Part shown: positions 526 to 63,372 of the stretch, in pieces
Numbering within the stretch: the stretch's first letter is position 1
Layout: each line of letters begins with the position of its first letter
Source of the DNA: Nereocystis luetkeana
Lineage: Eukaryota; Sar; Phaeophyceae; Laminariales; Laminariaceae
Length of the DNA stretch: 64,000 bases
Assembly (NCBI GenBank): GCA_031213475.1
Contig: JARUPZ010000020.1
Coordinates: 3,559,813 to 3,623,812, forward strand
Reading direction: 5' to 3'
The notes under the pieces: model-generated
Seen by the model: only the letters and a program-made list of their open reading frames with translations
Databases searched by the model: none
What the model was told of the DNA's origin: nothing
Position numbers and translations under genes: made by a program

Positions 526-3500
526 GTGAGGAAATTGAGCTTTTTGTTTTCTGCTGTTAGTCACCAGATCTCTAGCGGGGGGGGGGGGGGGGGGTGTACT
601 CGATATCATACGTGGCCGTAGTCGTATGACCAGAGACCCTCGCCATCCCTGCAATGCCGGGACGGAACAACGTCGGGTTTTCACCGATCAGACAGACTTT
701 GCCTGCACCAAGCGCGAAGCGAAACGTGAACTGTTCGGCGAGTCGCATGAAGGGTGAGTTGCATCCTACTAAGAACCGCTTGTGAGGCGGACTTTCTTGT
801 TATATAAATAGCGTCGAGTACTTTGGGGGGGGGGGGGGGGGGGGGGGGGGGTAGGAGTATGTAGATGGGCGAAGGCTGATTTCCACGTTTCTAGCGCCTG
901 CGAAGGAGGGGTGTGAGCCTGCCTGCTTTCTTTCGTACCTGGTGGTTGGTGTTGTTGCTTTTGTTGTCAATGCGTTGTAAGTGTTTTTGTTGGTCGATCG
1001 TTTTGGTTGATCGGTATGTCGGTTGGTTGGTCGGTCGGTCGGTCTGTTGGGTCAGTTGGTCGGTCGGTCTGTTGGTCGTTCGGTCTGTTGGTCAGTTGGT
1101 CGTTCGGTCTGTTGGTCAGTTGGTCGTTCGGTCTGTTGGTCAGTTGGTCGGTCGGCCTGTTGGTTAGTTGGTCGGTCGGTCTGTTAGTCGGTTGGTCGGT
1201 CGGTATATTGGTCTGTTGGTTGGTTGATCGGTCGGTTGGTTGGTTGGTCTTGATCTCGATGGCAGCAACGTTGCATCGTTTCTTGTTTTTTTTCGTGTGA
1301 GTGGCACTACAAACTCGTACCTGCAACGCGCGAAAAGACAGCGCTGCTGCCGCTGGTGCTATTTTAGTAGACTATCATCTGACCAACAACAGTTTCGCTC
1401 GGTCAGAGTATTCGCGGTTTCTCGATATTTCTTCCGGGGGGGGGGGGGGGGGGGAAGGGTTGCACCCCACACGACCATCTTCGCCTTTTTTTACGAGGAC
1501 TGTATTGCTGTGTGTAGATATTGGCCCCCTCCAGCTAAACAGTTGAAATGCTTTGTTCTTGCCTTCTGAGGCAACATTTCTGGTTGCCGCAGGGGCGCTC
1601 CTTCCACCCTTTTAGTACTGTAGCCCCGTGGTGGGGACAAACCACTCATATTCCAAGTAGTTTGTCCCTAAAACGGGACTGCCGTCCTGAAAAGGTTGAC
1701 ATGTTTAGTATTAACACTGCACTCCCGCCGTTTGGAGTTTTTACTTGGAATTATGGTCAGATTCAGGTGAACACGTGTACAGTGCATTACTGAGAGGGTT
1801 AACCCGTTTAGGACTGCAGTTTCGTTTTGGGGACAATTGGGGCAAAAATTACTTGGAAGTTGAGTGGTTTGCCCCCAAAACGGGACTGGAGTTCTACAAG
1901 GGTTGAGTCCCAACACTGGTTCTGGTTCTGGTTCTAGCGCTGTAACCCCCGACCGTAGTGCAGGATTTGGATCAAGCAATTGATACGATACCGATATACA
2001 AGAGAACCAATCCATACGATATAATACCGATAAACAAAAAAAACTGTTCGATACGGTACGATTCCGATGAAGAAAAAAAAAACAGTCGATACGATACCGA
2101 TGAACCCCCCGAAAAATAATCGAGACGTTACCGATGAACGAAAAAAAAACGATACGATACCGATAAACCAAAAAAGTAGTCGATACGATTCCGATATACA
2201 CAAAAACTAATCGATGCGATACCGATAAACAAAAACAATCGGTAAGATACCGATGAACCCAAAATCTGATCGATACCGATAGAGTATACTACCATGGTAA
2301 AAAACTATTGCATACCAGGTACGATGTCAGTAGTAAAAAAAAACGAATTGTATACTATAACGGGGGATCATAGTTAATAGGACCTGTGGTATACATACAA
2401 ACCTATATATTTAACCATTTTTACTAACAGTATTTGGTCCTATTAACTATGGTCCCCCGTAATATATCGATAAACAAAAAATGTATGTAATCGATGTGTA
2501 CGATCTCGACATTTGATAGATTGGAAGCTTTCGTTCATGATCTGCATACGTGAAAACATGGGGATGCCACAAGTGATGGAGGGCAGAATGTTTCCGATAT
2601 CATACATGCGATATATCGACAGCAGTAGTTCGATAGTTCGATTTATTTGATCGAAAAATTCGAGACGATATCCAAAACACTACCCGACCTCCCGGAAAAG
2701 GTCTACGAGTACTGTGCTGTAGGAATGAAAAGGTAGATGAGGGGTCATAGGGTGGGCCATCAACAACTCCACATCTCGGACAAATCACGATTTGTAGATG
2801 ATCTGCAGATGATCTGTAGATGATCTGCTGCCGTAGATCCTAATCTGCCGCTGTGGAATGTTCTGCGGCATCTGTATCGTACAGCTCCAACCCAGGGAAC
2901 TTATCGCTACGAGTAGACCCTGCAGATTTTTTTTTGGGCGGCAACGAAGACCTGCTACGTACTGCTGTGGATCAATACAGATCAGGGATCTGTGGGATCT
3001 GTCTATACCCTGAAATATCTACATGTAGATAATGAAGTGTAGATGACTGCGGGTGATCTATCTATCTGTGCGAGCTGTGGAATACCAACCATTGTGCCCA
3101 AGCTGGGCCGTACATGGTCTTACTTAAAAGCGCCCGTACTTGTTTTTTGTTGTTTCTTATTTTTGTTCCTGTCGTTGTTGCTCGTGGTGGTCGAATCGGG
3201 TCGGTCGGGTCGGGTCGGAGAGCAGGTACCAGAACTGCACGCAGGGAGCAAGCTGCGGCAACCGTCGCATTCAAAACCGTGGCGTTGCGAAGGTGGGGGA
3301 TTTTTTTTTTTTTAATCTTTGTTTCTGTTTTTTTCGTTTCTGTTTTCTTTTGTTTCTATGTTTTTTTTCTCTCTCTCTCTTGTTCGTATATTGATAGGTA
3401 TGATGCTCCCTCTGTTTCCTGCATTTCACGTTTTTTTGTTTTTTGTACTTGTTGCACATTGGGTGATGGTGCGGTTGGTAGTTTTTGTTGCTTTCTCGTG

Positions 3501-5651
3501 CTTCGTGTTTTACTCCATCCGTGGTGGCCTGTTCTGTTTTCCTTTTTTCTAATTCGTTTTTCTTCTTCTCGCTTGTCGCTCGTCTCTGCTTATTTCTGTT
3601 TCCGTGACGTTTGCCCTAACGTTTACCGCTCTCTATTTGCCGTTCCGTAACGTTTGTTGCTACATTTGTTGTTACGTAAGGCGTTACGTGCGTCGCTTCG
3701 TTTTGCCGTTGCATTTGCGGTTACGTTAGCAGCTATTACGTTTTTGCCGTTACATCTCACGTCACTTCTTCACTCACGTTGGACATCACCTTCACCGCTA
3801 TATTTCCCGTCACGGTTGCCTCTGCGTTTGTCGATACCTTTGTCGTTACAATTTGTCGTTACTTTTGGGCGTTACGGTTTTCGTCACTTTTTCGGTTACG
3901 TTTTCCACGTAACGTTTTCCTACCGGCCGTTACGATCACCTCTACTTTTGTCTTTACTTTTGTCGTTTTCATTGTCGTTACATTTCGCGTGACTTTTGGC
4001 GCTACGATTGACGTTGCGTTTGTCGTTACATTTGCCGTTACGTTTCGACGACAGGTCGAAACGTTCCGCGAGCCCGGCATGGGATGGGGGCTGAGGGTGG
4101 CGGAAGACGTGTCGAAGGGGTCCCTCGTCGGCGAGTATGTCGGAGAGGTGAGCAGCGATACGTGGGATTGGTAAGGGGGGGGGGTGTATGATGTGACGCG
4201 GAGCTCGTTCGACGTTTCGTTTTTTGTCTGCGAGCCTGTTTTTGTCTTCCAGCATGTTCGTCTGTTTGTTCGTTCGTTTGCTGTTTTTTTTGTTCGTTTG
4301 CTGTTTTTTTTTTTTCTCGTCGTTGGCATTCGTTTTTTTCTGTGTGTCTTGTCTGTCGTGGTTTATCTTGATGGTTTTCATGCCCCCCCGCCCCCCGCCC
4401 CCACGACCTGGCGGTCAGGTTAGATCATTTTCATGCCCCCCCCTCGCCCCCCGCCCCCCGACCTGGCGGTCAGGTTAGATCATTTTTGTGCGGGGTGAAG
4501 AACCTTTACTCCGCACAAGGGGGATGGTCGCGTCACGTAGTGTGAATAGGGTGAGGTACCCACAAGGGAGTTATATAGTACACCCATTGCTGTATCTGGA
4601 AACTGGCTTCGCCAGAAAGTAAGTAAATTCATTGATGCTGTCATTCATATGCAAAGAAAGTGCGCCTCTAAAGCGGTTCTTAGTAGGATGCAGCTCACCC
4701 TTCATGCGACTCGCCCAACACCTCACGGTGCTTCGCGCTTTTGGTGCAAGCAACCAATGCCTGCCTGGTCGGTGAAAACCCGACGTGCTCCGTCCCGGCA
4801 TTGTAGGGATGCGAGGGTCTATGGTCATACGACTACGGCCATGTATGATAATGAGTACCCCCCCCCTCCCCCCCCCTCTCCCACCCACGTATTCTTCCTC
4901 CTGCTTGTGAGAGCCCTCGTATCTCCGTTCTACTGGTAACCCATCCACGTCTGATCGAGTGTGACACGACATGCAGAACGTAATACCGGTTCAGATAACT
5001 TGGACGTCAACGCCTGGTTTGTTGATGGAAAGGTGTGGTAGATTCCGGTATGAATACCCCGCCCTCCCCTCCCCCTTCTCCTATCTCCCCCCTTACCCCT
5101 CTATGGTCGTACTACTACGGCCATGAATGGTATCGAGTACAAGTACCCCCCCCCCCCCCCCCCCCCCCCCCTATCCTTCCCCCGCACCCCATACGACTAC
5201 GGTCATGCACAACATGAGCACACCGCCCCCTGTCCCCTGTTGAACTGAATAAGGCGAGTAACAAATGAGTACGCCCTTCCATCATCCCCCTCTCCCCCTT
5301 CCCTCCCCTCCCCTTACCCCCCCCCCCCCCCCCCTCCCGTCCACCTCCCTCCCCCTCCCCCCTCCCTCCTCCTCCCACCCCGCCCCCCGGCGCCTAACGG
5401 CCTCGCCAGGTGATTGACGAAGCGATGGTGGAGCATCGTATGGCGGAGCAGAGGCGGCTGCGTCCGAAAGACGGCGAGTTCTACATCATGGAACTGGCCC
5501 AGTCGTTGTTTGTGGACGCGAAAGAGAAGGGGAACCTCATGCGCCTCATCAACCATAGGTGAGCTGTTGCTGCTGCTGCTGGGGAGGGAGGGGGGGTGGT
5601 GGTAGGGGGGAGGCGTGGCGGTAGATGGTGTTGGTGTTGGTGGGGGTGGCT

Positions 5652-5693
<42 letters not shown>

Positions 5694-8600
5694 TTAATAG
5701 TAGCAGTCTACTTTTTCATTGCCGGCCTGCCACGGGTGCAGAGCCGACGTGCGTCCCACCGCGAGTCCATCATACGAAGCGATCGCTGACATAGCGCCAC
5801 AACGACATATACAGGAAACGTCTTGTCACTTTCCCGCGACGCTCCCGAACTAAAAACAGTTAACAAAACGGCATGCTCGCATTCCAGCAGTAGCGCTCAT
5901 CCCGCGTGCTTTATACATACATCCGTGGGATTTCTCCCCCCCCCTCCCCTCGCCTGCTTGTTCATGCGCTCGTTTGTTCGCTCGTGTGCTCGCTCGCTTT
6001 CGCGCGCTCACTTTGCTTGCTTACTTTTGTCTCTCTTTTTCTTGCTCTCTTGCCCCTCCTTGAAATTCTTCTTTTTCGGCAGTTGCGACCCTAACTGTGA
6101 CGTTCAGGCTTGGAACATTGCCGGCTACACGAGGCTCGGGATCTACGCGAAATCGGACCTGGCCAAGGGGGAGAGCCTGTCCTACGACTACAAGGTGACT
6201 TCATTTTGTGTGCAAATACCCCCCCCCCCCGTCCTTGCCTCCCTATCTATTTTTTATAGGTTGGGTTGGCGTCGGTTGGCAACGACACTGTAAAACATGC
6301 CGCTCATTACGTGAGCTAGACAACCAGGGTACCGTTTTTTTTTTTTTTTTTTGGCGGTCGCCCACTGCTGGTTGTCGAGTTAGATCATTTGTGCGAGGTA
6401 AAGAACCTTACTCCGCACAATTGGGAATGGTCGTATCACGTAGTGTTCAAGGTAAGGCACCCAAGAGGCAGTTACATAGTTCTCCCATAGCTGTCTCTGG
6501 AAATGCCTACACCGGAAATTAAATCAACTCATTGAAGCTGTCGTCCATATGCAAGTCCGCCTCAAAAGCGGTTCTTAGTAGGATGCTGCTCACCCTTCAT
6601 GCGACTCGCCAGACACCTCACGGCGCTTCGCGCTTGGTGCAAGCAATGTCTGCCTGGTCGGTGAAAACCCGACATGCTCCGTCCCGGCATTGTAGGGATG
6701 CGAGGGTCTATGGTCATACGACTACGGCCATGCATGAAATCGAGCACATCTCTCCTATCGAGTACACCCCCCCGCCCCCCGCCCCCCCCCGTCCTTGGCC
6801 TCTCCGCCTTGCCCATTCTTCCCCTGCTCTTTTCTTATACCCCCCCCCTCCCCGACCCTATTTTATATAGGTTGGGTTGGCGTCGGTTGGCAACGACACT
6901 GTAAAACATGCCACTCACTACGTGAGCTAGACAACCAGGGTACCGTTTTTTGTTTTTGTTTTTTTTTGGGCCGGTTACCCACAGCTGGTTGTCGAGTTAG
7001 ATCACTTGTGCGAGGTAAACAACCTTTACTCCGTACAAGTGGGAATGATCGTATCTCGCAGTGTTCAACGTAAGGCATCTAAGAGGCAGTTACATAGTAC
7101 TCCCATTGCTGTCTCTGGAAACGCTTACACCGGAAATTAAATCAACTCATTGAAGCTGTCGTCCATATGCAAGTCCGCCTCACAAGTGGTTCTTAGTAGG
7201 ATGCTGCTCACCCTTCATGCCATTCGCCCAACACCTCACGCTTCGCTTCGCGCTTGGGGCAAGCAATGTCTGCCTGGTCGGTGAAAAGCCGACATGGAAA
7301 ACCGACATGCTCCGTCCCGGCACACAGGGTCTATGGTCATAGGTACGGCTACGGCAATGCATGATATCGATCCCCCCATCCCCCTCCCCACTCCCGTTCC
7401 CCTCTCCGCCTTCCTTATTCCTACCCTACCCCTTTCTTGCCTTCCCCCCCCCCCCCCTCCCCCAACCTCAGCTCCTCACCCCTCTCTCCCTCTCCCCTCC
7501 TTTCCCTCCACTTCCCTCTTACCCCCCCCCCCCCCCCCCCCTCCCCCCTCCTTCGCCGTCTATGCATCCCCTCCTTCCCCCCCTCCCCTCCCCTTAAAAA
7601 GACAAAATCGAAATCAGAAACCTTCATTCCTGCCCCCCCCCCCCCCCCCCCCCCCCCTTTCTGGCTCCCTTTTCCGCCACCGCCTCCCCCGCTTTTTTCG
7701 TTGTTGGTTCCTTCGTGTGCTTCCTGTGATCGACGTGCAGTTTTCGACGAACGAGACCGCGAAATTTCGTTGCATGTGCGGAGCCGAAAATTGCCGGGGA
7801 ACGCTTGCGCCGAAGGGCAAGGAGGAAGAGCTTGTCGAGGATGTGAGACTTTTTGAGGGGGGCGGGGGGCAGTATCCTTCTCCGCATGGTTCGTTACAAG
7901 GTCGTAGATGAATTTTTTGGTTGTGTCGGTTGTGTCGGCGGTGTTGTTGGTTTTGGTGTTTTTGTTGTTGTTGTTGTTGTTGTTGTTGATTCTTGATCCT
8001 GTTTTTTTTTTTGGTGGAGGTGTAGCGGGTGTGTTCGTTGTGCCTGTTGTTTGCTGTTGTCGCAAGCAACGCCATAAAAAAGCCCGTCCTATCGAAGCGT
8101 ATACGCCGACCCCTCTGAAAAATCATTGGTTCTTGTACTATCCCCCCCGCAGCGGCCCTGCCACGCCACGCGTGTGCACGCGACGAGAAACCAAAAAAAA
8201 ATAACTGCGCTTTCCGTTCCACCAAAACACCCCCACATGCAAACGCCTCCCGCACCTCCTGTAACTCCCCAATTAATGGGGGAAGAACGCTCTAATTGCA
8301 CACCCGGGTACGCATATAAGACTCGGCACACCCTGTAGTGTCTGCTGGTTTGATTGGGTTTTGCTTTGTTTTGTGGCCTTTCGCTGGAAACCCTCGATGG
8401 CGGTGGCTACGGTCGTGGTGGGTCTAGGATACCATGTCGGCCCAGACGGCGGCTAATTATATACTCTGGGCGGAAGTATAAGGACAGCTTTAGACTCTAG
8501 CATTCATACAAAGCGTTCCTTATATTTCCATCCAGAGCGGTACCCAGTGTGATTGATAGGAGTAGGGCATTTTTTTTTTTGTCGAAACATTGTTGTTTTA

Positions 8601-11033
8601 GGTTTACGTGTGATTCGTTGTGCATGTATACCTATTCACAGGCCACATCGGGTTTGACGCACTTTCATCTCTTTTCAAATTCGGTTTCTGGGTGACTTAC
8701 TAATGACTCACTATTAGTGCAGAGCTCCTCAAGTAAGGACCCTCGGAAGGCAAAAGTGGGTGCCACCCCCTCTCTCGTCCCAGGTAGGACGTTTCCCAGG
8801 GATCAATTTGGAGGGAGGACTCAGATTCCGGTAGAATCAGGTCGGGGTGGGACCAGGAGGCGAAAACCGGGAGCAGGTTGAGGGTATGTATACAAGTTTG
8901 GTTTGCGTTTCCCCCCAGTGTATATTGCGGGGGGGCCGTAGTTAATAGGAGCAAATATTGTTGGTAAAAATTGTTAAATATTTTGGTTTTTATGTATACC
9001 ATAGGTCCTATTAACTATGGTCCCCCGTAATAGTTAAGTGGGTGGTCGTCCCTAACATCGCCTTCCGTTCCTACCGTATATAGCCTTGTATGTATTCCTC
9101 GTACCGCCCAAATAACGCCTTCTGTTCCTGCAGTTGCCCCCCAGATGTCGCCCTACCTGGTGCATATCTCCCGTACCCCCGCCCCCTCGAAATATCGCCT
9201 TCCGTGCCTCCTGTAAAACCCCTCAAACCCAGGAGTCCGGGCTGAAATACCACCTCACGTATTTCCCGTACTCGCTCAAATGTTGCCTTCCGTTTCTACA
9301 GTTGCCCCCCAGATATAGACTTACGTTTCCCCCCCCTCCCCCCGCCAAATATCGCCTTCCGTGCCTCCTGTAAGACCCCTCAAATCCAGGGGTCCAAGCT
9401 GAAATGTCGCCTCACGTAATTCCCGAACCCGCCCAATTATCGCCTTCCGTTCCTACAGGTGTCGCCCAAATACTGCCTCACGTATTATATCCCGTCCCCC
9501 GTGCCCCCCCCCCCGCCCCCCCAAATATCGCCTGCCGTGCCTCCTGTAAAACCCTTCACACCCAGGGGTCAAAGCTGAAGGGCAAGGCCCGAAGGGAGAT
9601 GCTCCAGAAGCGAGAGAGGCTGGCCAAGAACCGGCAGGCGCGGAGCCAGATAGACCAGCTGGTGACCTTCAAGCGGCTCTCCCTGACTGGAAGGGTGCTG
9701 CCCGGGGACAGGACGGCGGAGGTCAAGGCTGGCCCGCCGGTCAAGTACTTCGGCTTCGCGAGGGTGCGTACACTGCTGTGTGCCAGTGGTGGATACCGTA
9801 TGGAACTTTTCGATATACCAAGCTGTGGATGTCTCGGAATATCGAATTCTCGGCACATCGTATATATGTCATGTATCAAAACGCGTTTTACCCTCCGCCC
9901 CCTAGCATCCCCAACCCCAACCCCAACCCCAAACTCAACCCAATCCAACCCCAAACTCAACCCAATCCAACCCAACCCAACCCAACCCAACCCAACCCAA
10001 CCCAACCCAACTCAACCCAACCCAACCCAACCCAACCCAACCCAACCCAACCCAACCCAACCCAACCCAACCCAACCCAACCCAACCCAACCCAACCCAA
10101 CCCAACCCAACCCAACCCAACCCACCCTGGTGTGACACGTCTGTTTGTGCTCCGCAGGACCAGCGCATCTTCCTCCTCCGCAACGCTCGGGCTGGTGCCG
10201 ACCTCCTGACCCGCAAGCGACTGCTGGTGACAAAGGCGCAGTCGCGCGCCAAGAGGGCGGCGCTCGCCTCTCCCCCGCCCCCTCTCCCCTCCTCCTCCTC
10301 CTCCGCCCCGCCTCCGCAAGACTCCACCCCTGCGGTGCCGTGTGGAGGCGGTGGTAGGAGTAGTAAGAAGACTAGAGTTGTTGGCGCGGTCACGGGTTCA
10401 CCCTCCGGGGTCACCGTGGCGGCAGGAAGGGGACGGGGGGGAGAAGGGGGGGGGGCGGTTGGAGATGGGGGAGGGGAGGGACCGGTGCGAGAGCTTGGGG
10501 GGGAGGAGAGGGGGGGGGGGGGTGAGGTGGTGGGAGGAGAGGAAGTAGGAGGAGGAGGAGGAGGAGGAAAGAAAGGAGAAGACGTAGGAAAGGAAAGAGG
10601 AGAAGGAGGAGGAAGAGGAAGAGGAGGAGGAGAAGTAGGAGAGCCGGGGGTATTGATGGAACAAACCGCAACCCCCACAAGCGCTCCCGCTACGCCCGCT
10701 TTCCCCGCCACCACCACCACCACCACCACCGGTGCGGGCAACGCCGCACGATCATCGATACGCGCGCAGGGAGAATCTCCGACGGAGAGCGCGGCCGGCC
10801 TGGCGGCGCCTTCGACATCCGTGACCTCGGCGCCGCTGGTGGCGGCGCTGACGGCAGCGACAGCGGTAACGGAAGCGGTAGCACCAGAGGGGATGGAATT
10901 GGAGGGGGCGCGTGGGAGCGGCGGCGACGCAGCATCGACGGTCCACGGGGCCTCCCCTGGGGAGGGAAGAGGCATGGCAACGCCGCGCTCCGAAACGACA
11001 GGGGGGGAGGGGGGGGCGCGTTCACCGAGATGA
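412..11033 (+). CDS. SET-domain histone lysine methyltransferase (SET2/ASH1/NSD type), 5'-partial, at least 8 exons
   Basis: The exons join in frame as 412-525, 3226-3292, 4055-4147, 5410-5558, 6083-6194, 7741-7842, 9566-9763 and 10158-11033, all with GT-AG introns and compatible phases. Together they encode about 570 residues. In order these are an AWS cysteine cluster (CNCTDGCGDSC), a SET domain with GWGL, EYVGE, INHSCDPNC and the catalytic-tyrosine segment SYDYK, a post-SET zinc site (CMCGAENCRGTL), a basic helical segment, and a low-complexity tail. By family knowledge, AWS-SET-post-SET enzymes methylate histone H3, usually K36, using S-adenosylmethionine in the nucleus. No PHD, PWWP, bromo or WW domain is visible here; any N-terminal domain would lie upstream of the window. 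The introns are heavily invaded by repeats. The enzyme class is secure; the exact substrate and subfamily are inference. Confidence 0.9.
594..815 (-). mobile_element. Poly(C)-ending dispersed repeat, long copy 1 (truncated)
   Basis: Read on the minus strand this matches the 3' half of the copies near 4.7, 6.6 and 7.2 kb, including TTCATGCGACTCGCC, the CCCGAC block and the terminal GAGTAC followed by a C-run (seen here as a G-run before GTACTC). It lies in a SET intron, antisense to the gene. No ORF or transposase is visible. Confidence 0.7.
1007..1250. repeat. GGTC/GGTT-type tandem array
   Basis: About 240 bp of tetranucleotide-like repeats (GGTC, GGTT, TGTT) with a higher-order period of about 24 to 28 bp, seen in the recurring block GGTCTGTTGGTCAGTTGGTC. 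It lies in an intron. The long ORFs on both strands here are products of the repeat. Confidence 0.85.
1606..1697. mobile_element. R1 miniature inverted-repeat element, copy 1
   Basis: A hairpin-forming element whose arms contain GGGGACAAACCACTC and GTTTGTCCCTAAAACGGGAC. Ends are of the ACCCTTTTAG...CTGAAAAGGTT type. One of at least seven copies in the window. Confidence 0.75.
1800..1904. mobile_element. R1 miniature inverted-repeat element, copy 2
   Basis: Second R1 copy, about 100 bp after the first. It starts TTAACCCGTTTAGGACTGCA and ends TACAAGGGTTGA. The left edge carries a TTAA, as in the best-preserved copy at 22.7 kb. Confidence 0.75.
1975..2290. repeat. GATACGATACCGAT tandem array
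   Basis: Nine or so degenerate units of about 30 to 38 bp, each with TCGATACGATACCGAT followed by AAACAAAAA or AACCC-type spacers. It is intronic. The minus-strand ORFs (F/Y/R-rich) across it are repeat artefacts. Confidence 0.8.
2356..2465. mobile_element. R2 foldback element, copy 1
   Basis: Element with termini TATAACGGGGGATCATAG and ACTATGGTCCCCCGTAATA, with TTAATAGGACC and GGTCCTATTAA in the arms. It has the same structure as six other copies in the window. Confidence 0.75.
3226..3292 (+). CDS. SET gene exon b: AWS domain, second part
   Basis: A 67-bp exon between GAGCAG and GTGGGG. Joined to exon a it reads through CTQGASCGNRRIQNRGVAK, completing the AWS cysteine pattern and leading directly into the SET N-terminus in phase 0. 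The phase fit on both sides supports the call. Confidence 0.85.
3600..4050. repeat. Degenerate GTTACGTTTG-type array before exon c
   Basis: A pyrimidine- and GTTAC-rich array of about 12- to 15-bp units (variants of TTTGTCGTTAC) fills the 3' half of the intron and ends at the exon c acceptor. It probably supplies the polypyrimidine context for splicing. Confidence 0.65.
4055..4147 (+). CDS. SET gene exon c: start of SET domain
   Basis: Thirty-one codons, from VETFREPGMGWGLRV to SLVGEYVGE, flanked by ACAG and GTGAGC. It contains the GWGL and EYVGE motifs of the cofactor-binding half of the SET fold. The intron just upstream is a degenerate GTTAC-rich tandem array that runs into the acceptor. 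Confidence 0.9.
4379..4487. repeat. Tandem pair of 55- to 58-bp units with C-runs
   Basis: The block GACCTGGCGGTCAGGTTAG followed by ATCATTTT is present twice, each time preceded by a run of C and G. The second unit leads into the long poly(C)-ending repeat copy 2. Confidence 0.7.
4462..4872 (+). mobile_element. Poly(C)-ending dispersed repeat, long copy 2
   Basis: It begins near GGTTAGATCATTT, passes AAGAACCTTTACTCCGCACA, CGGTTCTTAGTAGGATGC and TCATGCGACTCGCCCAACAC, and ends CATACGACTACGGCCATG then GAGTAC and a C-rich tail. Same sequence order as the copies at 6.3 and 6.9 kb. Confidence 0.75.
5101..5240 (+). repeat. Short terminal cassettes of the poly(C)-ending family
   Basis: Two partial ends lie here in direct order: TACGGCCATGAATGGTATCG with GAGTAC and a long C-run, then CATACGACTACGGTCATGCA with GAGCAC and C-rich sequence. 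They lack the upstream 300 to 400 bp of the long copies. Confidence 0.6.
5410..5558 (+). CDS. SET gene exon d: SET insert and core
   Basis: The exon opens with VIDEAMVEHRMAEQRR and ends with GNLMRLINH plus two bases of the serine codon of NHSCDPNC. The donor is GTGAGC. Poly(C)-rich intron sequence precedes the CCAG acceptor. Confidence 0.9.
5650..5700. repeat. (GTA)n microsatellite
   Basis: About 15 GTA/TAG trinucleotides in the intron after exon d. Confidence 0.9.
6083..6194 (+). CDS. SET gene exon e: NHSCDPNC and catalytic segment
   Basis: The first base completes the serine of INHSCDPNC, and the exon runs to SLSYDYK, which holds the catalytic tyrosine. The acceptor is CGGCAG after a pyrimidine-rich tract and the donor is GTGACT. 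It ends in phase 0. Confidence 0.92.
6259..6790 (+). mobile_element. Poly(C)-ending dispersed repeat, long copy 3 (first of tandem pair)
   Basis: The most complete form. It starts GGTTGGGTTGGCGTCGGTTG just after TTTTTATAG, has an internal T-run near 6333-6352, and ends CATACGACTACGGCCATGCA, GAGTAC and C-runs. The next copy follows almost immediately with the same start, so the unit is tandemly duplicated inside the intron. Confidence 0.8.
6870..7385 (+). mobile_element. Poly(C)-ending dispersed repeat, long copy 4 (second of tandem pair)
   Basis: It repeats copy 3 from GGTTGGGTTGGCGTCGG to the CATGCATGATATCG end with few differences: a T-run broken by G, and small insertions near 7290-7330. 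C-rich intron sequence continues beyond it to exon f. Confidence 0.8.
7741..7842 (+). CDS. SET gene exon f: post-SET zinc site
   Basis: Thirty-four codons starting FSTNETAKFRCMCGAENC, so that YDYK from exon e continues into the usual Y-D-Y-x-F sequence. The CxCx4C post-SET cluster is intact. The donor is GTGAGA. Confidence 0.92.
7945..7990. repeat. (TTG)n microsatellite
   Basis: A run of GTT trinucleotides in the intron after exon f. Confidence 0.85.
8921..9032. mobile_element. R2 foldback element, copy 2
   Basis: Termini TATATTGCGGGGGGGCCGTA and ACTATGGTCCCCCGTAATAG, with GTTAATAGGA and TCCTATTAAC arms around an A/T-rich centre. It sits in a SET intron. Confidence 0.78.
9130..9595 (+). repeat. 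Tandem array that duplicates the exon g 3' splice site
   Basis: Three degenerate copies (spacing about 157 and 176 bp) share CTCCTGTAA, a C-rich step, CCAGG and a stretch corresponding to the first exon codons. The last copy contains the accepted splice site at 9565/9566. The first two have AG at 9231-9232 and 9388-9389. Confidence 0.75.
9566..9763 (+). CDS. SET gene exon g: basic region after post-SET
   Basis: Sixty-six codons beginning GSKLKGKARREMLQKRER and ending KYFGFAR before GTGCGT. The segment is rich in Lys and Arg and probably helical. The acceptor and the first codons are repeated, in degenerate form, twice in the intron just upstream. Confidence 0.85.
9905..10122. repeat. (CCCAA)n pentanucleotide array
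   Basis: About 40 near-perfect CCCAA units in the last SET intron, with a few AACTC or ATCC variants at the left. The complementary strand is (TTGGG)n and could form G-quadruplexes. The long ORFs on both strands (NPTQP or GWVGL type) are artefacts of the array. Confidence 0.92.
10158..11033 (+). CDS. SET gene exon h: terminal low-complexity exon
   Basis: After TCCGCAG the frame reads DQRIFLLRNARAGADLLTRK and then enters long Ser/Pro, Gly/Glu, Thr and Ala-rich stretches before the TGA at 11031-11033. The first 30 or so codons look like structured protein. The Gly/Glu-rich part (about 10430-10650) is an almost pure purine tract, so its length could vary between alleles. Phase 0 with exon g. 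Confidence 0.82.
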   Translation, partial: DQRIFLLRNARAGADLLTRKRLLVTKAQSRAKRAALASPPPPLPSSSSSAPPPQDSTPAVPCGGGGRSSKKTRVVGAVTGSPSGVTVAAGRGRGGEGGGAVGDGGGEGPVRELGGEERGGGGEVVGGEEVGGGGGGGKKGEDVGKERGEGGGRGRGGGEVGEPGVLMEQTATPTSAPATPAFPATTTTTTTGAGNAARSSIRAQGESPTESAAGLAAPSTSVTSAPLVAALTAATAVTEAVAPEGMELEGARGSGGDAASTVHGASPGEGRGMATPRSETTGGEGGARSPR

Positions 11034-13760: not shown

Positions 13761-14364
13761 CGCTACGGGTTTGCCGTACTTGTGGCAGTCGTGTAAAGGA
13801 GGTGTCTTGAGGCGTTAGGCAAAGCCTGTCTGCGGCAGCGCGAGATGCAAACGATCGGGAGACACCAAACCACTACCAGTGTGAAATAATCCCCACTGGC
13901 GCCCGACCCTGGTCGACGAAAACCCGACGTGCCCCGTCCCGGCATGTGTAGCGACGCGAAGGTCTATGGCCATACGAAGTATGTACAACTACACTACGGC
14001 CATGCGAGTCACCCCACGGTAGGGGTTGCAATTTTTTGGGGCCGAAGGTCTCTGACCGATCGAGTCCCCCCCTAGGCGAGGAACCAGCAGCTAGGATGCA
14101 ACTTTTTACTGGTGTGTTCGTACACGACTAGCGCATACGAGTGCGGGTCGGGTGGCGCGAGCAGATTTCTTCCAAGTGCTGTATCGGGTGAGATATCGAG
14201 CTCCTAGTGTGAGGGGGTCAGAGACGTCTGGTGCACCCCTACCGTGACATGGCTCATGCATTACATGAGTACCCCCCCCCCCCTCCTCCCCCTTCTCGCT
14301 CGCACGTCAAAACGGTGGGGTAAATATATCACCCTTGTTTTTTTGTTAAGCCTTAGCGGTAGGT

Positions 14365-15045: not shown

Positions 15046-15514
15046 GCATGCGCTGCCGTCGTGACATACGCTGAAAAGGATGAGGCCCACGAGTTTGAAA
15101 GGAGGACATGATTCTCTGTTTTGTCGATGCGTGTACAAGGAGGTTGAGCCAAGGTTATAGCGCATAATGTTCAAGACCTAAGACTCTTGAAACGACTACA
15201 CATTACATGTGCTAGCCAAGCTCTGGCGTGTCCTATCGATGACCGAGTCTTGCATCAGCCGCGAGTCTTGGAATTGGTCGCTCGAATCGTGGATCTGTGG
15301 CTCGAATCTTGGGTTCGTGACGCGAATTTGAATTCAAAGGTGACCTTGCAGTAGATTCGTAGACAATCACTGACTGGTTGGTGGAGGTGGAAGCGAAACG
15401 CCTCTTTAGTTGGCTAGCTCACCGTGAACGAGCACCAACTCCTTCGGAGCAAGGCAACAAGAGAAACCAACTTATACAATGGTAGTTCGGGGGGGGAGAG
15501 GGGGGGGGTGGGGG

Positions 15515-15640
15515 GGGCGTACTCATGCATGGCCGTAGTCTATGGTGGGGGGGGGGTGGGGGGGGTGTACTCGATAGGAAAGATGTACCCAATTTCATGC
15601 ATGGTCGTAGTCGTATGACGATAGGTGTGGGGGGGGGTGA
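15515..15640 (-). repeat. Reverse-oriented short cassettes of the poly(C)-ending family
   Basis: Two G-runs are each followed by GTACTC and ATGCATGG(C/T)CGTAGTC, which is the family's 3' end read on the opposite strand. No long body follows. Confidence 0.6.
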
Positions 15641-22716: not shown

Positions 22717-23505
22717 CTTAACCCCTTTAGAACCGCAGTCCCGTTTGGGGACAAAACTACTTGAAATTTGACTGGTTTGTCCCCAGAACGGGACTGCGGT
22801 TCTAAAAGGGTTAAACAATGTGGTTTGCGTGTGTCAGCTCGTGGCTGGTATACGCTCAGATCCGCTTATCGATGGCCGATAAGACACAACCTGGAGAGGG
22901 CAAACGCTTAAGCTGCCGTTAAGCAAACTTGTATGTGTAAGCTTCTCTGTAAGATAAAGAGATGTTGTTGGCGACTCCTGGCCACAGTGTTGATTGATTT
23001 GCTCAGCTGGAAGCTGATGATGGTGAGCAAGAGTAGAGTGAGCTCATGTGGGGGGGGGCGATGCGTGCTTGCGCTTGCAACAAAAAGAACAAAAACAGAA
23101 AAGATACCACCCCAGTCAATCCATGACCCTAGCCGGTAGCCAATATTGTTACTCCAACAACTGAACTGCTAGGGTGCGCTCAAATCAGTACCCTTTGGCT
23201 AATCCCGAACCTTACCGGTTCTAAGAGGGATACTGGATATGACAGTCCCGCTACATGTACACATGTACTTCCGTACGTACGATACAGTACATATACTTTA
23301 TCACATATCAGTAACGACACAGCTTGTAAACTGTTGTTGTTTGTCACACATTCAAGCTACGTACGTACTACTTAAAGTAACTACAGCGACAATACGATAC
23401 ACGTCAAACAAGGCTGCTTGTGGTACGTATGCTACGCTATGTATACCAGATGACTCTGTATTATCAAGTGACGACAGATGGTTACTTACAAGTATCATCT
23501 CCAAT
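22716..23505. mobile_element. 790-bp insertion inside the integrase core
   Basis: The bases AATGTT occur immediately before (22710-22715) and after (23506-23511) this block and look like a 6-bp target duplication. The block begins with an R1 element and then carries unrelated sequence with repeated TACGTACG words. I see no terminal repeats defining a known class. Confidence 0.65.
22719..22814. mobile_element. R1 miniature inverted-repeat element, copy 3 (best preserved)
   Basis: It starts TTAACCCCTTTAGAACCGCA and ends GCGGTTCTAAAAGGGTTAA, a near-perfect inverted pair with TTAA at each edge. The interior forms a second arm pair (GGGACAAAACTACTTG and TTTGTCCCCAGAACGGG). TTAA edges recall piggyBac-type targets; this assignment is inference. 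Confidence 0.85.
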
Positions 23506-31679: not shown

Positions 31680-34075
31680 AAAAAGTTTGGGAAATCTAGA
31701 AAATTGGTATAAAAAGTCCTTCGATCAGGATGGCCCCAACACCACAGTTATCATGGTGGGTGTCTCGAGGTCTCCGAGGGATAAAACGACCCAAGTGCAC
31801 GGTACGTGCAGTCTGAGTCACGTGTCTAGCGTCAGCCCGCAGGAGTATGACAAGTATCATGCCGCGAGCGCGCTTGTAACGACTCCTTGCAGTGTCGTAG
31901 CTCGGACAATACGTTGCCATCCCTCAGCCAGGCAGCTCGGGACTGCGCCGGTTGGACAAGATGCATTGACAATAATAGCCGTCTTGCTTCGTTGCCTTTC
32001 CACTCTGTATGAGACTTCGGAGGGGGGAAGCAAAACGGAAGAATGTCGAATACAAGCATCGGCCAGGCGAGGCATACCCGGGCAGCTACGAGTGCTCGCA
32101 TAGGGTGAGAGATGGTCTGCTCAGTATCCGAACGCACAGCAAGACATGCGAGGCGCATTCAGTCACTACCTCTACAACAGTGGTGCTGCACGCTCACAGC
32201 AGGCGCTTGATACAACTACATTTACTTATGGTTGTATCTTGTCGCTCCATTTGGTCCCAGAAGGGTTCGCATATGTTACTGCGATGATACTACCGTAGCA
32301 GCTGCGGCAAAGCGCGGTTTACCCTCACAGGAGTTTTTCGCGCGAAAGACGTGCTTGTTTTTAGGCTATGGGTTCGTAAAATTCGATGCCTTTTTCGTCA
32401 TGAACCGGTCGTTCTAGTGCGGTGAAGGAGTCGCAAATAAGGCTCATTCTTATCGGAGAGCGTTTTTTCCAAAATTTCCAAAGTTTGAAAATAATTGGAC
32501 ATATGTATCGATATACGGAGGCATTCTGTCACTATTCGTGAAATGCTCCAAGAGGAAAAATATCAAGTTCGTTAACATTCCAATATTTGGAAAAAAAAAA
32601 CAGGAAAATATGGAAGATTGAAAAATTGCGCGAAAAAAATGTCGAAAAATTGGGAAAAAGCTCTCCGATAAGAATGACCCTAAGTACAGCTCGGCGCCAC
32701 TTGTCATGATCAAGGTCGGGATACTTCGTATCCCCAGACAGGTTATTCTATCGTGCAGGTACTCGTCGGTACTCACTTGTGTCGTTTGCTTAGAGATAAA
32801 AGAAGACCAGCCTTGTTCCTTTCGTGCACGGGATGAAAACTGAGAGCAACGCTCGCTCCTCGCTGGGAAACCCTTTGATTTTCCATCCAAGATACGCCTC
32901 CCAAGTACTACAACTACGATCCCAATACCCGAACCCAGGTAATCCCCGGGCTTTCAGCCTCATTCAAAGCAGTACCATAGAGGGAAAAAATGGGGTCACT
33001 TCGGATTTGGATTCGCAGGCAGGCTGATGCTTTCTTCACACCCCGTCAACATGCACAGAGCTTGGCAACGAGCTTTGTGGCGCTATTTTGTTTTTGAGCC
33101 GCCAATCACCCTGCTCACACGTGGCACCCTCCTCCTACGCCGATCGGACCCCACCCGGCCCCGAGCTCCCCAAACTGACCCTGGGTACAGATTGCCGCCG
33201 GCGGGGCGGAGAGCGAAGCGACTACGGTCGCCGGGTCGCCAACAACAAAAACAAAAACGAGGATCGGTCGCTGCCACAAAATAGGGACATGCACGATAGA
33301 AATTTTCCCGGCGGATCGGCCGCAGGCACTGAAAATCACAAACTGGGGTCGCCGAAGGCGTGCTTCCCGGGTTTCTAGGTTATGATACGCTTGTTTGGAC
33401 TGTGGTTCTACAAAAATTATAGCCGCACGTTGCACCCTACTCGAGCTGAGAAGATGAGAGTCCGAAGAATCCCGAATATTAGAAAAAAAAACAAAAAAAA
33501 AACAGGAGATGGGTTCAAAAAGAAACGGGCAGCACTTTTTCGGACCCATCACGTGTTCGTAGCGACATTTATTGCCTAGCTGGAACAATTCGTTCAGCGT
33601 GCGGTAGGCGACTCAGCGCTAGTCTCGAAAAGGGTCAGCTCCATGGGTTGAAAATGAAAACGCGAAAAACACCAGGGACGGTAGAATAGTTACAGCCCGT
33701 AACGAATTCGGCCGTACGTACAAAGAGTACCTGGGGGGGGGTTTTGCCGTAAAACACGTATCCCCTATCCCCGGTATGCAAACGCCTTCATATGAAGATG
33801 TAAACCCTTGCATAGAGACCAGGAGTATGACACCAGCAGCAGCACCCATAGCACACAACGAGAAGTAGTATGGCCGAAGGTGGCTCCTCCGGAGTCTCGC
33901 GGGGTCGGCTTCACAGCCTGTCACTCTGACAGCCAAATGACACGTACAGCAGCTAGCGTGGAGTGTGGGAGCACGAAGTCCACTGCAGTAATGGCGGGAG
34001 GGTATTGAAGTGGATCAATCTAATCAATGCACATTTGTCGTGCAGGCAATAAGGCAAATGCAATACAGCACTATT
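31680..34075. other. Gene-poor interval with one R6 element
   Basis: Short ORFs occur on both strands but none resembles a protein I know, and none shows consistent splice borders. The R6 element at 32.44-32.68 kb is the only structure I can define. Confidence 0.4.
32439..32682 (+). mobile_element. R6 inverted-repeat element, copy a
   Basis: Ends GGCTCATTCTTATCGGAGAG and CTCTCCGATAAGAATGACCC form a terminal inverted repeat. Interior A/T-rich, with AAAATTTCCAAAGTTTG near the left end. The same element occurs in opposite orientation at 40.63-40.87 kb. Confidence 0.82.
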
Positions 34076-34249: not shown

Positions 34250-35065
34250 CGTTGTTGTAATTTCTTATTAGCGAAACCGCGCCACGTTCGCGGCACATAC
34301 CTCAGATTGGCTCCGCACCGCCAGGGATGTGTTGGCATGATGCAAGGCCATCATTGAAGCTGTCGCATGGCCGAGACCGGCCAGGACTCCAAGAGATATC
34401 TGGCATTCTGATGCACCCCCGGAACTTTCAGATCGTTGTCGCAAATAAACCTTATTTGCGACACCGAGACGTGGTTGCCGCATACGCTCCAGATCGGTAA
34501 AGCACTACCAGAAGAGTCTCGGCATGGTGTAGGGCTAGGGCTACCATTGAAGCCATCTTGTAGCCAAAACGGACCAGTACCCGAGGAGATATGGGGTATC
34601 CTGGTATGCCCGCAGAATCTTCTGGCTGGTGTCGCAAATAAGCCTCTTGTGCGAGACGCGTGTCGCAAAATACCGTAATTGCGACACCGTGCCGTGGTTG
34701 CCGCACACGCTCCGTCTTATTTGCGAGACGCGTGTCACAAAATACCGTATTTGCGACACCGCGCCGTGGTTGCCGCACACGCTCCGGATCGGCGACGCAC
34801 TGCCGGTAGATGCTCAGCATGGTGTACAGCTAGAGCTACCATTGAAGCTATCGAGTAGCCAAAACGGGCCATTACTCGAGGACATACAGCGTATCCTCGT
34901 ACACCCGCGGAATGTTCTGGCTGGTGTCGTTAATAATACCTGGTAAGCCTTTATTTTCGACACGCGTGTATCCAGAACGGGCCAGTACTCAAGGAGATGC
35001 TGTATCTGGTATCCTGGTGATCCTGGTGCACTGCCAGAATATTGAGACTGGTGTCGTAAAGCCGC
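34250..35065 (+). repeat. R4 direct array, about four units bounded by TGTCGCAAATAA
   Basis: Units of about 200 to 290 bp share CGTGGTTGCCGCACACGCTC, CATTGAAGC, AAAACGG(A/G)CCAGTACTCGAG-like and CTGGTGTCGCAAATAA steps. Junctions show the palindrome-like TTGCGACA/TGTCGCAA. Two further units lie inverted at 36.8-37.2 kb. Confidence 0.8.
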
Positions 35066-36769: not shown

Positions 36770-37180
36770 CTCACGAGAATACCGCATATCTCCTCGAGTA
36801 CTGCCCCGTTTCGAATAAACGATGGCTTCAATGGTAGCCCTAGCCCTACACCATGCTGAGACTCTTCTGGTAGTGCTTTGCCGATCTGGAGCGTGTGCGG
36901 CAACCACGTCGCGGTGTCGCAAATTAGGTTTATTTGCGACAACGATCTGAACGTTTTGCGGGTGCACCAGGATGCCAGATATCTCCTGGAGTCCTGGGCC
37001 GTTTCGGCCATGCGATAGCTTCAATGATAGCCCTGCGCCATGCCAACACATCCCTGGCGGTGCGAAGCCAATATGAGGTATGCGCCGCGAACGTGCGCTT
37101 ATTTTCGACACCGTGTCGCAAATAAGAAATTACGACACAGGTGTCGCAAATAGCATTACCCAAAACAATGTGATTTCGAC
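36770..37180 (-). repeat. R4 inverted block, about two units
   Basis: Read on the minus strand it gives GTGTCGCAAATAAG, CATTGAAGCTATCGCATGGC and CAAGATCGTT-like R4 steps, matching 34.25-34.56 kb. Its last units overlap the open frame that continues from the ankyrin gene. Confidence 0.78.
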
Positions 37181-40480: not shown

Positions 40481-40499
40481 CCCCCCCCCCCTCGGTTAT

Positions 40500-41525
40500 G
40501 ACTGCATATATATGGAAAAACGAGTACGCATCCAGGAGGAGAGAAGTAGTAGTAGTAAACTTATTCAAGAAAGGAGATAAGGCTGGCCCGGGGAACTATA
40601 AAGGGATATAACGCTGCTAAAAAAAAGGTGCCATTCTTATCGGAGAGCTTTTCCCCCGAATTTTCGACATTTTTTTCGCGCAATTTTTCAATCTTCCATA
40701 TTTTTCTGTTTTTTTTTTCAATATTGGAATGTTAGCGAACTTGATATTTTTGGTTCTGGAGAATTTCACGAATATTATAGTGACAGAACGCCTCTGTATA
40801 TGGATACATACCTCCAATTATAGTCAAACTTTGGAAATTATGGAAAACACGCTCTCCGATAAGAATGCACAGTAGTAGGGAAAACATTTTGTAAGATATT
40901 GAACGATAGAATGGGAACAATGATCGAGAAGGAAGACAAAATAAGCGAATGGCAAGCAGCGTTTAGGCCTAATCGTAGCTGCGTACGCCATGTGTACACT
41001 CTAGGTAAGATAATCCAAGGTAGGAAAGACGCGGGACTACCAACGTACTGTTTCTTTCTAGATGTACAGAAGGCCTACGACACAGTATGTATGGAGAAAA
41101 GGATGGTGGAAAAAACTATGGGAAATAGGCATCAGAGGAAGAAAAAGATGACGGAATGTGCGAGAAGTGCTGTGATGCTGGACGGGGAAATATCGAAGTA
41201 CCTGGTATGTTGATATTGTACAAGGAGTTGCACAGGGATATACATTGTCACCCAATCTATTCAAGATATATATTAATGACTTGATAGTAGCAGTCGAAGC
41301 AATAGAGTAGAACTTACATAGTAGGAGAATGCGAAACATACGAGGAGGAACGGGATATGTTAGAAGAGCTGAGTGAAATACGAATGTGACATGGGGGAGT
41401 TTGACACACTAGATAGCGAGAAAACGATCGCTATCCTAGGAGATAAATGGTGGCCACAGGCGGCCAAACAGAAAGGGGATAAGACTCGAAAAAAGTTTCC
41501 ATGTAATATCATATATGGAAATAAC
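40500..41525 (+). mobile_element. Non-LTR (LINE) reverse transcriptase fragment, degenerate
   Basis: In changing frames the sequence gives VNLFKKGDKAGPGNYKGI, then after an inserted R6 element VGKTFCKILNDRMGTMIEKE, WQAAFRPNRSC, YCFFLDVQKAYDTV (motif A), and GVAQGYTLSPNLFKIYINDL (motif B). The YADD motif C is absent, with a deletion or rearrangement after VAVEAIE, and a tail with GDKWWPQA follows. No endonuclease domain or poly(A) tail is seen. A dead 3' or internal fragment. Confidence 0.86.
40627..40870 (-). mobile_element. R6 inverted-repeat element, copy b, inside the LINE
   Basis: Ends GGTGCCATTCTTATCGGAGA and CTCTCCGATAAGAATGCAC match copy a in opposite orientation. It separates two halves of a continuous RT reading (GITLL and VGKTF), which proves insertion after the LINE arrived. 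Confidence 0.85.
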
Positions 41526-41529
41526 GTAA

Positions 41530-42850
41530 TGAGCGCCTAATTGTTGGAGGTCTCTATTAGGAGTAGGAAGGTGCTCCGTCTCGAAAGGCATGCGTGGTCA
41601 ATGGTCAGATGACTAAGGCAAGCAACAAATGAGTACGCCCCCCACCCCCCCCCTCCAAAGCCGAGACACCTTACCGCGGGCGCTATAATACCGGGTACTG
41701 GTACTTGTCAACAAATAATGAACGGTGCAGCCCCGTTAAAACAAAACTTTGCAGACCCCTGAATAACAATTTCAGGGGGAACGGGCGAGCTCTACAACAG
41801 CAGTATCGACCCTGTAACAAAGAACCGGAAATAAAACTGGCCTTTCAACCCTTTTAATGCACCACAGAACCACATATTCAACTAAAATTTCAAGTAATTC
41901 GTTCCCAACACGCGAGTGCAGTCCCAAGGGGTAAAATATACCAGGTACTGAATAAGCTATTAATAAATTTATTTTCTGAAGAGAGATGTAATTCCGCACT
42001 AAACTTTCGTGTACCGCCCGCGGCTGAGAAGCTTTCTCCGAAAAAAAAGCAAGTTTCTTGCGAGGCTCTTTCTTACGGGGTACCTTGTATACTGATACCT
42101 CGTGACAGCAGTACAGATGTACGTGGAATACTGTTCTGAGGAGAATGAAGTGATCACCATTTTCGGAAAAGATCATCAAAGTCATTAATACCGGAGACAG
42201 AAGGACATACCTGGTAGGCAGCAAAACTTCATCACCCAAAAAGATGGCGAGGCGTTTGAGGCGTGGAGGATCGACAGTGCCATTAAGTGTGGGCTGAGTA
42301 AATACCTCGCAACAGGCTCATAGAAGATCATGTGTGCTGAAACTTGAAGCCGGGAGCCAGACATAGTGCACATCGGCTTACGGTTCCAAACCGACCCGTG
42401 GAGGTCGAAATACGTGTATGCACCTGATCTCACAATGTGCATCGCAAAGTGATCGGTTTCGCAGGAAAACACGATATTTCGATCAGGCGCGATGCCTTGG
42501 GTGACCGAAAACAGTCAACAGTAATAATCCTGTTGTAATTTCTTCCATTATAACCTTTGACGAGACGATCCTGATCGACCACAGAGCAAGAATCCAGCAG
42601 ACGACTACCCCAACTTTACCGAAAGGGTTGTTTCCTTCAAGCGACAGCCAGTACGACCATACCCTGCCTACGGAAACGACGAACCCATAAGCAAACGACG
42701 CTACGAAGAACTTTCAACACAGAAAAATGTGCTCACATGAGCCAATTCCAGTAAAACAATCCTCCGCAAACGGTGCGCGGGTGCTACACGGGAGTCACAG
42801 CCCCAATTCAAACTCAGTCCTCCAAAAATCTCGACCCTCTTGTGCGCAAG
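41530..42850. other. Interval between LINE fragment and RPL27
   Basis: It contains a short poly(C)-family end near 41600-41655 (AAATGAGTACGCCCC), a decayed R1 copy, and no supported gene. It includes the RPL27 3' untranslated region next to 42851. Confidence 0.45.
41844..41936. mobile_element. R1 miniature inverted-repeat element, copy 5 (decayed)
   Basis: TTCAACCCTTTTAATGCACC at the left, AGTGCAGTCCCAAGGGGTAA at the right and AAATTTCAAGTAATTCGTTC inside match R1 with many substitutions. Confidence 0.55.
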
Positions 42851-62515: not shown

Positions 62516-63372
62516 GTAGACATATATAAAACTCAGGAGAGGGTGATATTTCGTCTCTTTGCGCCGAATTCAATATCGCGATTTTCGTAAACGCAAATCC
62601 CTCAATATAAAACTCGATATCTGGTTCTTTGCCAGTAGAACGTGAGGTAAAACATGAGTGAAATGAGTAGTCGTCAGTAAGTCCAAAAAACACGAAGGAT
62701 ACACTGCTGTACAGCATGGGATGGGCTGGAGGACATATAGCTGCTGCTGCTGTTTTGATTGCTCGACAGGCTACAACGCCCGCGTACACCGCTTGGCTGT
62801 GGGCATAGACGAGGCCGCAGCGCGGACGCGTCTCGTGCTCGTGCTGAGGCGTGTCCGCCAAAAACCAAAGATCTGGTTGGCGCTATCCGGTTGTTGTTCC
62901 CGGATAGGGTGGGGCGTGCCGTGTGTTTGGGACATGTGGGTTTGGGGCAGCGCCGGCAGAAAGACGCCAAGCCGGAGTACTGGATGATGTGCTGGTGCCG
63001 CTGAACCCGGGCATCCGCCCTTGCCCGACCAAGGGAGCACCCGACTGCCGTACTCATTCAACCAAAAGTCGTGGCGGCCACTGCCGCTGTTGTTGCCCTT
63101 GCTGACAAGGTGATGATCGGATGACCGAGTAGAGGGGACAGGCTGTTTCCAATTTTGTCAGCCAGATTCGGCTCTACCAACACGAAAAGAGAACACAAAT
63201 ATATGCTTGGGGTAAAAACACCCCAAGCATATATTTGTGTGTTGCGGACCACGTATCGCGAAAATATCCCCATATATTTGCATATCCCGCCGTTGGTATA
63301 AAACTCGATAGGCACATAATTTGGCTCTAAACCCCAAATATCGCGATATTTCTGAGTTTTATATATGTCTAC
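62516..63372 (-). mobile_element. R5 inverted-repeat element, copy 2
   Basis: Its ends GTAGACATATATAAAACTCA and TGAGTTTTATATATGTCTAC are a perfect inverted repeat. The internal AAATATATGCTTGGGGT palindrome is also present. It is the inverted sister of 43691-44536, about 18 kb away and in an intergenic interval. Confidence 0.9.

Follow-up and report, generated by a model that had tools for sequence, protein, structure and literature searches.

A SINE-like retroposon of Nereocystis luetkeana with a LINE-like 3' module and a probable preference for C-runs as insertion sites

The stretch of DNA analysed in this work ("the window") comprises 64,000 nucleotides of the brown alga Nereocystis luetkeana (assembly GCA_031213475.1, contig JARUPZ010000020.1, positions 3,559,813 to 3,623,812). 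It contains several copies of a repeat resembling short interspersed nuclear elements (SINEs), a broken long interspersed nuclear element (LINE) with a similar tail, and a gene coding for a SET domain. The main features are listed below, with positions counted from the first letter of the window.

6247..6789, + strand: full-length non-autonomous SINE-like element with the 5' end CTATTTTTTATAGGTTGGG..., a body, a LINE-like 3' module, GAGTACA and a C-rich run (aligned part 6247-6767)
6858..7385, + strand: second full-length copy (aligned 6858-7370), 87.4% identical to the 6247 copy and placed behind the C-rich stretch of the first
4452..4872, + strand: 5'-truncated copy (aligned 4452-4867) ending in ATGAGTAC and a C-run, 82.5% identical to the 6247 copy
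577..851, - strand: 5'-truncated copy (aligned 588-794), 87% identical to the 6247 copy, with C-runs on both sides, which on the + strand are 18 G at 577-594 and 27 G at 825-851 (5' side)
5100-5141 and 5190-5229, + strand: two tail-only copies, with a run of 26 C and C-rich sequence between them
15565-15624 (region 15511..15624), - strand: tail-only copy, then a second short tail module (by eye), within C-runs
54831-54858 (to 54870 with its end), + strand: tail-only copy ending in GTGAGTACCCCCC
1-52, - strand: tail-only copy at the window edge
40507..41643, + strand: LINE copy, broken and 5'-truncated, that has reverse transcriptase motifs (RVT_1, 4.5e-8) and the tail AACAAATGAGTACG-C6
41572..41641, + strand: 3' module of this LINE (about 70 nt), a homologue of the 3' module of the SINE, aligned with it over 73 columns at 71% identity (E 7e-4)
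5410-5558 and 6083-6195, + strand: two exons of the SET-domain gene (PF00856 on both, at 0.012, which is below its cut-off, and at 1.1e-6)

Three of the long copies lie within introns of the SET-domain gene, with neighbouring exons near 4148 and 7741 by eye. An earlier note, made from the letters of the window alone, had reported four long copies ending in GAGTAC and a C-run. All four are present at slightly different limits and three of them have GAGTAC before the C-run, but the copy at 6858-7370 continues from ATCGAT directly into the C-run (...GGCAATGCATGATATCGAT-CCCCCC). Ends in other sequence, which that note had thought damaging to its reading, do exist: an inner piece at 13908-13977 continues without a C-run, and a stretch at another locus (L047:821-931) ends in GGAGTACACAGG; recent copies nearly always end in C. 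New relative to the earlier description are the tail-only copies, the 5' C-run and the LINE whose tail is similar. Some of the tail-only copies have weak E-values when taken alone, near 1e-3 to 1e-4. The 18-mer CATACGACTACGGCCATG occurs exactly at 4826 and 6715 only, and with one mismatch in the reverse copy.

The repeat is a genome-wide, non-autonomous SINE-like retroposon of about 520 bp. The assembly (465,085,209 bases in 1987 contigs) was searched with a 181-base SINE query, which gave 961 first-look candidates; 40 of these were scored, all at 97-100% identity, and there were two partial matches in addition. We fetched 30 loci around matches (L001-L030). The copies obtained by similarity search are the youngest ones. 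These recent copies have a common 3' edge, ...TCGAGTAC[A]-Cn, many 5' cut positions and differing flanks, and across the 30 loci the same 3' edge is followed by different flanking sequences. Full-length copies at other loci start near the same point as the 6247 copy of the window, at CTATT..ATATAGGTTGGG, and stop at the same end edge, while the remaining copies begin at many internal points. A common 3' edge combined with variable 5' cuts and differing flanks is the pattern that target-primed reverse transcription would leave. At least five C's are present within 15 nt behind the end motif in 42 of 46 rows, and one of the other four rows is cut by the end of its locus. It was also observed that the end motif is doubled in the recent subfamily (ATCGAG(T/C)ACATCTCTCCTATCGAGTACA; window 6714-6766 and many 3' ends in L001-L030) and single in the copy at 4452-4872 and in the LINE.

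The SINE tail 16-mer CTATCGAGTACACCCC, which itself contains CCCC and represents the recent subfamily only, occurs exactly 6324 times in the genome and its reversed control not once, thus the repeat is far beyond chance. The SINE 5' end has 785 exact occurrences (reversed control 0); the ratio of 785 to 6324 is only a rough sign that full-length copies are few, since the two patterns differ in length. Copies are spread across many contigs. An unbiased sample of 200 kb, made up of twenty 10-kb stretches taken at round-number positions from nine of the longer contigs, contained 17 element pieces (SINE 12, LINE 5), of which two may belong to one LINE copy (L036). These pieces are older than those of the similarity-search set. 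Given the number of pieces in this sample, the exact counts probably fall well short of the copies actually present.

For the SINE, Rfam gave nothing at cut-off (three matches were far below it, with E up to 5) and no tRNA was found in it, therefore we class it as a SINE-like non-autonomous element without naming a small-RNA origin. A hairpin in the 3' module was considered and dropped, as it was not above shuffles. The GTACTC/GAGTAC motifs at the ends of the reverse copy could be taken for terminal inverted repeats of a DNA transposon, a reading against which the variable 5' truncation argues. Phage sequences gave no SINE match, other genome contigs no SINE 21-mer and viral contigs no tail motifs; likewise, no match to the LINE reverse transcriptase protein was found in other genome contigs or viral contigs.

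The last 70 nt or so of the SINE are similar to the 3' terminus of a LINE found in this genome, as seen for the LINE copy of the window. The family tail of this LINE reads GTGCTCCGTC..GGGATGCG..GGTC.ATGGTCA...GACTA.GG.....GAGTAC followed by C, and a tail 18-mer occurs exactly 2794 times in the genome (reversed control 0). The reverse transcriptase of the family matches RVT_1 at 2.3e-26. The reading frame ends at a TGA within the tail AACAAATGAGTACG-Cn or close variants of it, so there is almost no 3' untranslated region (UTR); such a minimal 3' UTR, closed by a simple repeat, is a trait of RTE-type LINEs. In a search with the reverse transcriptase protein 150 of 4104 candidates were scored, and the longest open frame among those listed, 921 amino acids, was in contig C18. 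A stretch of 800 bases (L052), 742 nt upstream of the C18 match, contains two pieces similar to apurinic/apyrimidinic (AP) endonucleases, split by an insert with stops, and the motifs GDFNSRIG and TTDHCLIW can be recognized in it by eye. The Pfam matches of the first piece itself are weak (best 0.018) and the second piece has none. Among 14 endonuclease pieces (the query and 13 of 35 relatives), Exo_endo_phos_2 was found in six (best 6.7e-5) and Exo_endo_phos in two (best 2.2e-4); the endonuclease profile found no solved relative in the PDB. The LINE appears, from these matches, to carry an AP-like endonuclease upstream of its reverse transcriptase, the two being read as separate parts in C18. 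Named Ectocarpus proteins matched the LINE reverse transcriptase fragment at 48-74% identity among the 120 of 396 matches listed, in line with a brown algal source of the DNA. On the grounds of the endonuclease, the short 3' UTR, the description of Ectocarpus elements (PMC12477816) and protein similarity, rather than of a tree, the LINE is probably of the RTE type.

Some further observations concern the LINE and its relatives. The window copy is interrupted at 40620-40875 by a short sequence. Parts of this sequence are found again in inverted orientation at 32445-32659, and a short stretch of it recurs at L048:3946-3987. The insert in the endonuclease part of the C18 LINE (LIGPMGHIKTYIF...) has a look-alike in L004 at the start of a LINE stretch. 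Three reverse transcriptase and endonuclease relatives (P0003, P0122 and P0129) are filed under bacterial names (Hyphomicrobiales, Algoriphagus, Ekhidna) and are likely algal DNA in bacterial assemblies.

A C-run is usually also present on the 5' side of the insertions. The 5' flanks were evaluated in 42 copies, a set from which the locus of the window itself (L001), L008 (second copy of the L009 site), alignments stopping before position 500 and copies near a locus end had been left out. Of the 42 copies, 34 had at least six consecutive C's within the 30 nt preceding the 5' edge and none had a run of six G's; random positions had such a C-run in 1.56% of cases. When the threshold was lowered to five, the same flanks gave 38 C-runs and one G-run. 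In the window, the 5' flank of the LINE has 11 C's at 40481-40491. In the whole genome CCCC stands directly before 505 of the 785 full 5' ends; as background, 2 of 367 CTATT sites in the 200-kb sample follow CCCC, and so do 0.71% of all positions (about 0.5-0.7%). The pieces of the 200-kb sample had an upstream C-run in 7 and a downstream C-run in 12 of 17 cases, with one and zero, respectively, on the opposite strand. Most insertions are thus found in one kind of sequence, a statement based mainly on the SINE and weaker in the unbiased sample. L008 (contig C284) and L009 (contig C38) have the same insertion and flanks, and the small contig may represent a second haplotype.

The flanks also contain target duplications. 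Where these can be distinguished from pure C, they start within the run and extend into a short suffix. Examples are Cn-TCTGCTCCT in L010, CnGCGCCATAAC with one differing base in L007, Cn-TTCCC in L018 (the next four letters also fit the element's own start), CCCCAAAACCCCCCGCC in L020, and a LINE duplication ending in CTCTGAG in L036. The match between 5' and 3' flanks was higher in the same copy than in mismatched pairs (mean 4.46 vs. 3.58; 40 copies), and none of 5000 permutations was as high. C-runs on the 5' side and duplications that start inside the C-run indicate that the run is mainly target, and much of it was probably present before the insertion.

This bears on the possibility that the retroposon inserts at random targets and acquires a poly(C) tail of its own, either through slippage or through untemplated addition, in which case the 5' C-runs would be due to chance or later expansion. 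Such an origin would agree with the 42 of 46 rows having C's behind the end motif, with the variable tail lengths and with a few 5' flanks having only a short C-run next to a longer 3' run (five C's in L017); moreover, the simple repeats made by RTE LINEs of Lepidoptera are attributed to slippage (PMC2887409). It does not account for the 5' C-runs seen in 34 of the 42 copies, for CCCC directly before 505 of 785 full ends or for duplications that start within the run, and we regard it as unlikely.

A second question is how clusters of copies arise. Eleven of the 46 rows lie directly behind the tail of an earlier copy (12 when L016 is counted by eye), and they have different 5' cuts. In L051 the order is SINE, C21-GGTACTTTA, a 5'-cut LINE, C20-GGTACTTTA, a 5'-cut SINE, C10-GGTACT and a further SINE piece. 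The LINE and the SINE thus share both the site and the manner of using it, although some of the last letters of the suffixes are also compatible with the beginnings of the elements that follow. Clusters could instead be products of tandem duplication or of recombination between C-runs. The head-to-tail copies of the window, 611 bp apart, look like this, as do two L010 copies with identical 5' cut and suffix, and four SINE tail 16-mers at C1:10522962-10524061, spaced 359-363 bp and perhaps forming a tandem array. However, the neighbours in L051 are a LINE and differently cut SINEs, the 5' cuts differ among the 11 rows behind a tail, and copies occur on many contigs. As a general account tandem duplication is therefore very improbable, but it may well hold for single clusters such as L010, and it may occur beside insertion.

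The alternative proposed in the earlier note was a conserved motif beside an expandable C-run, that is, a satellite or regulatory edge which is not mobile. The tail-only copies within C-runs on both sides (5100-5229, 15511-15624) would be compatible with it. It is contradicted by the full-length boundaries, the graded 5' truncation, the differing flanks, the homologous 3' end of the LINE and the target duplications, and we give it hardly any credence.

Our preferred interpretation, which we consider very likely as a whole, is that of a non-autonomous retroposon moved in trans by an RTE-type LINE with AP endonuclease and a common 3' module, inserting at C-runs. It starts from what can be read in the letters themselves: the 3' edge, the 5' truncation, the homologous LINE tail, C-runs of the sense strand on both sides, part of the suffixes and the neighbouring LINE and SINE insertions. 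The SINE would be mobilised by the LINE sharing its 3' module. Its RNA would end in ...GAGTAC(A/G) and some C's. The LINE protein would nick the G-rich strand inside a C-run, and the 3' end of the G-run could then pair with the terminal C's of the RNA and prime reverse transcription. A second nick, 0 to about 10 nt past the C-run, would yield a duplication consisting of the run and a short suffix. Since the C-run is duplicated, one run would be left before and one behind the insertion. Later insertions may land again in the flanking C-runs and build nested clusters like that in the SET-domain gene. A preference of the endonuclease itself for C-runs would be a further step, as pairing of tail to target alone could give the same pattern.

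It must be noted that several observations weigh against this interpretation. No C-run of six was present in the 30-nt 5' flank in 8 of the 42 copies, 280 of the 785 full 5' ends are not directly after CCCC, and 10 of the 17 pieces of the unbiased, older sample have no upstream C-run. The lengths of the runs before and behind the element are uncorrelated (r 0.10, n=41), which suggests that slippage or C's in the RNA tail also act. Duplications beyond pure C are clear in some copies only: an alignment score of at least 5 was reached in 11 of 40 true pairs vs. 14% of mismatched pairs, the effect on flank matching is modest, and many copies have only C's in common, which are indistinguishable from a tail. 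In L010 the two copies agree in their 5' cut and suffix although they are only 86.5% alike (13% different), which also fits tandem duplication. The count of 6324 is no test of the tail, because the 16-mer contains CCCC. The fold of the 3' module is no better than that of shuffles (z 0.11 and -0.05). Finally, the LINE is pieced together from parts (in C18, from the endonuclease stretch and the reverse transcriptase match), and the best solved relative of its reverse transcriptase is an R2 protein (1.1e-16), followed by L1 ORF2 (9e-11) and others, which makes the clade of the LINE less certain.

Compared with these results, the core of the earlier note, a dispersed retroposon with a C end always at the same edge, stands for nearly all recent copies, and a candidate for the source element it had asked for is the LINE with the homologous tail. 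Its idea of a simple poly(C) tail is not supported, as a C-run is usually also present before the 5' edge and is part of the duplicated target; the target duplications outside the C-run that it had proposed to look for exist in some copies as suffixes, but many copies show only C's. The element was also expected to explain many homopolymers of this genome. In the 200-kb sample there were 46 C or G runs of at least 10 (230 per Mb), as many as A or T runs. Eight of the 46 touch an element found by the search and 38 touch none, so that most runs are unrelated to a GAGTAC junction and the element cannot account for the bulk of the homopolymers. The majority of C-runs in the sample, being independent of recognisable copies, could serve as targets.

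The window contains other repeats as well. Two inverted copies of a further repeat, with aligned pieces 87-97% complementary, lie at 43692-44470 and 62591-63371. An inverted repeat of 323 nt (34283-34605 and 36773-37095) is 89% complementary and has more repeated parts around it. At 1603-1906, 22717-22815, 52747-52845 and 58345-58443 there is a dispersed repeat whose inverted arms enclose GCAGTCCCGTTT.GGGGACAAAC, and at 9901-10132 an array of CCCAA units.

It is instructive to compare the SINE and its LINE partner with known systems. Judged by its description (PMC12477816), the nearest described element is RTEX-N1_Ec32 of Ectocarpus, a non-autonomous element of about 600 bp. It is present in over 6000 copies and agrees at its 3' end with the autonomous RTE-X LINEs RTEX-1/2_Ec32. 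Like the present SINE it is brown algal, non-autonomous and has a LINE-matching 3' end, and the origin of its 5' part is given as undetermined; the passages describing it mention neither a poly(C) end nor a C-run target, and 'poly-c' is absent from the main text. According to PMC2887409, RTE LINEs of Lepidoptera seed microsatellites at their 3' edge and resemble the present LINE in the short 3' UTR behind the stop codon, the simple repeat at the 3' edge and the many 3' fragments. Those LINEs are reported to insert without sequence specificity and to leave duplications of 6-12 bp, whereas the target in the present case is usually a homopolymer C-run resembling the tail. Bov-B and Sauria SINEs form a similar RTE LINE/SINE pair with common 3' ends and a target signature, but, as reported in PMC13295347, their targets rarely resemble the 3' repeat, while the present copies are usually flanked by targets that do. 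Microsatellite-specific LINEs such as Togen, inserting in (TG)n, and some HERO families share with the present LINE the simple-repeat target; they are assigned to lineages with a restriction-like endonuclease (PMC4640811), from which the present LINE differs by its AP-like endonuclease and its mononucleotide target. Among the titles and abstract openings listed by searches of the open-licence literature we found no report of a poly(C)-specific LINE or a poly(C)-tailed retrotransposon.

The purpose of simple-repeat tails in RTE-type LINEs and SINEs has been described as unsettled (PMC13295347). As target and tail match in the majority of the recent copies that were examined, and genome-wide in hundreds of full-length ones, a base-pairing model becomes directly testable, and targeting of C-runs offers a simple reason for element clusters and for C-runs as hot spots of insertion in introns. 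It is quite possible, though we would stop short of calling it probable, that in this LINE/SINE pair the AP-type endonuclease came to nick homopolymer runs of G/C, which would make target and RNA tail the same letter and C-runs self-renewing docking sites; the pair would then spread by forming chains wherever a run already exists, and would maintain and multiply some of the long C-runs in such genomes. Set beside the known systems, the element is most likely ordinary in kind, probably an RTE-type LINE with its non-autonomous partner, and unusual in its homopolymer-C target and tail, the new part being the target preference within a known kind of element.

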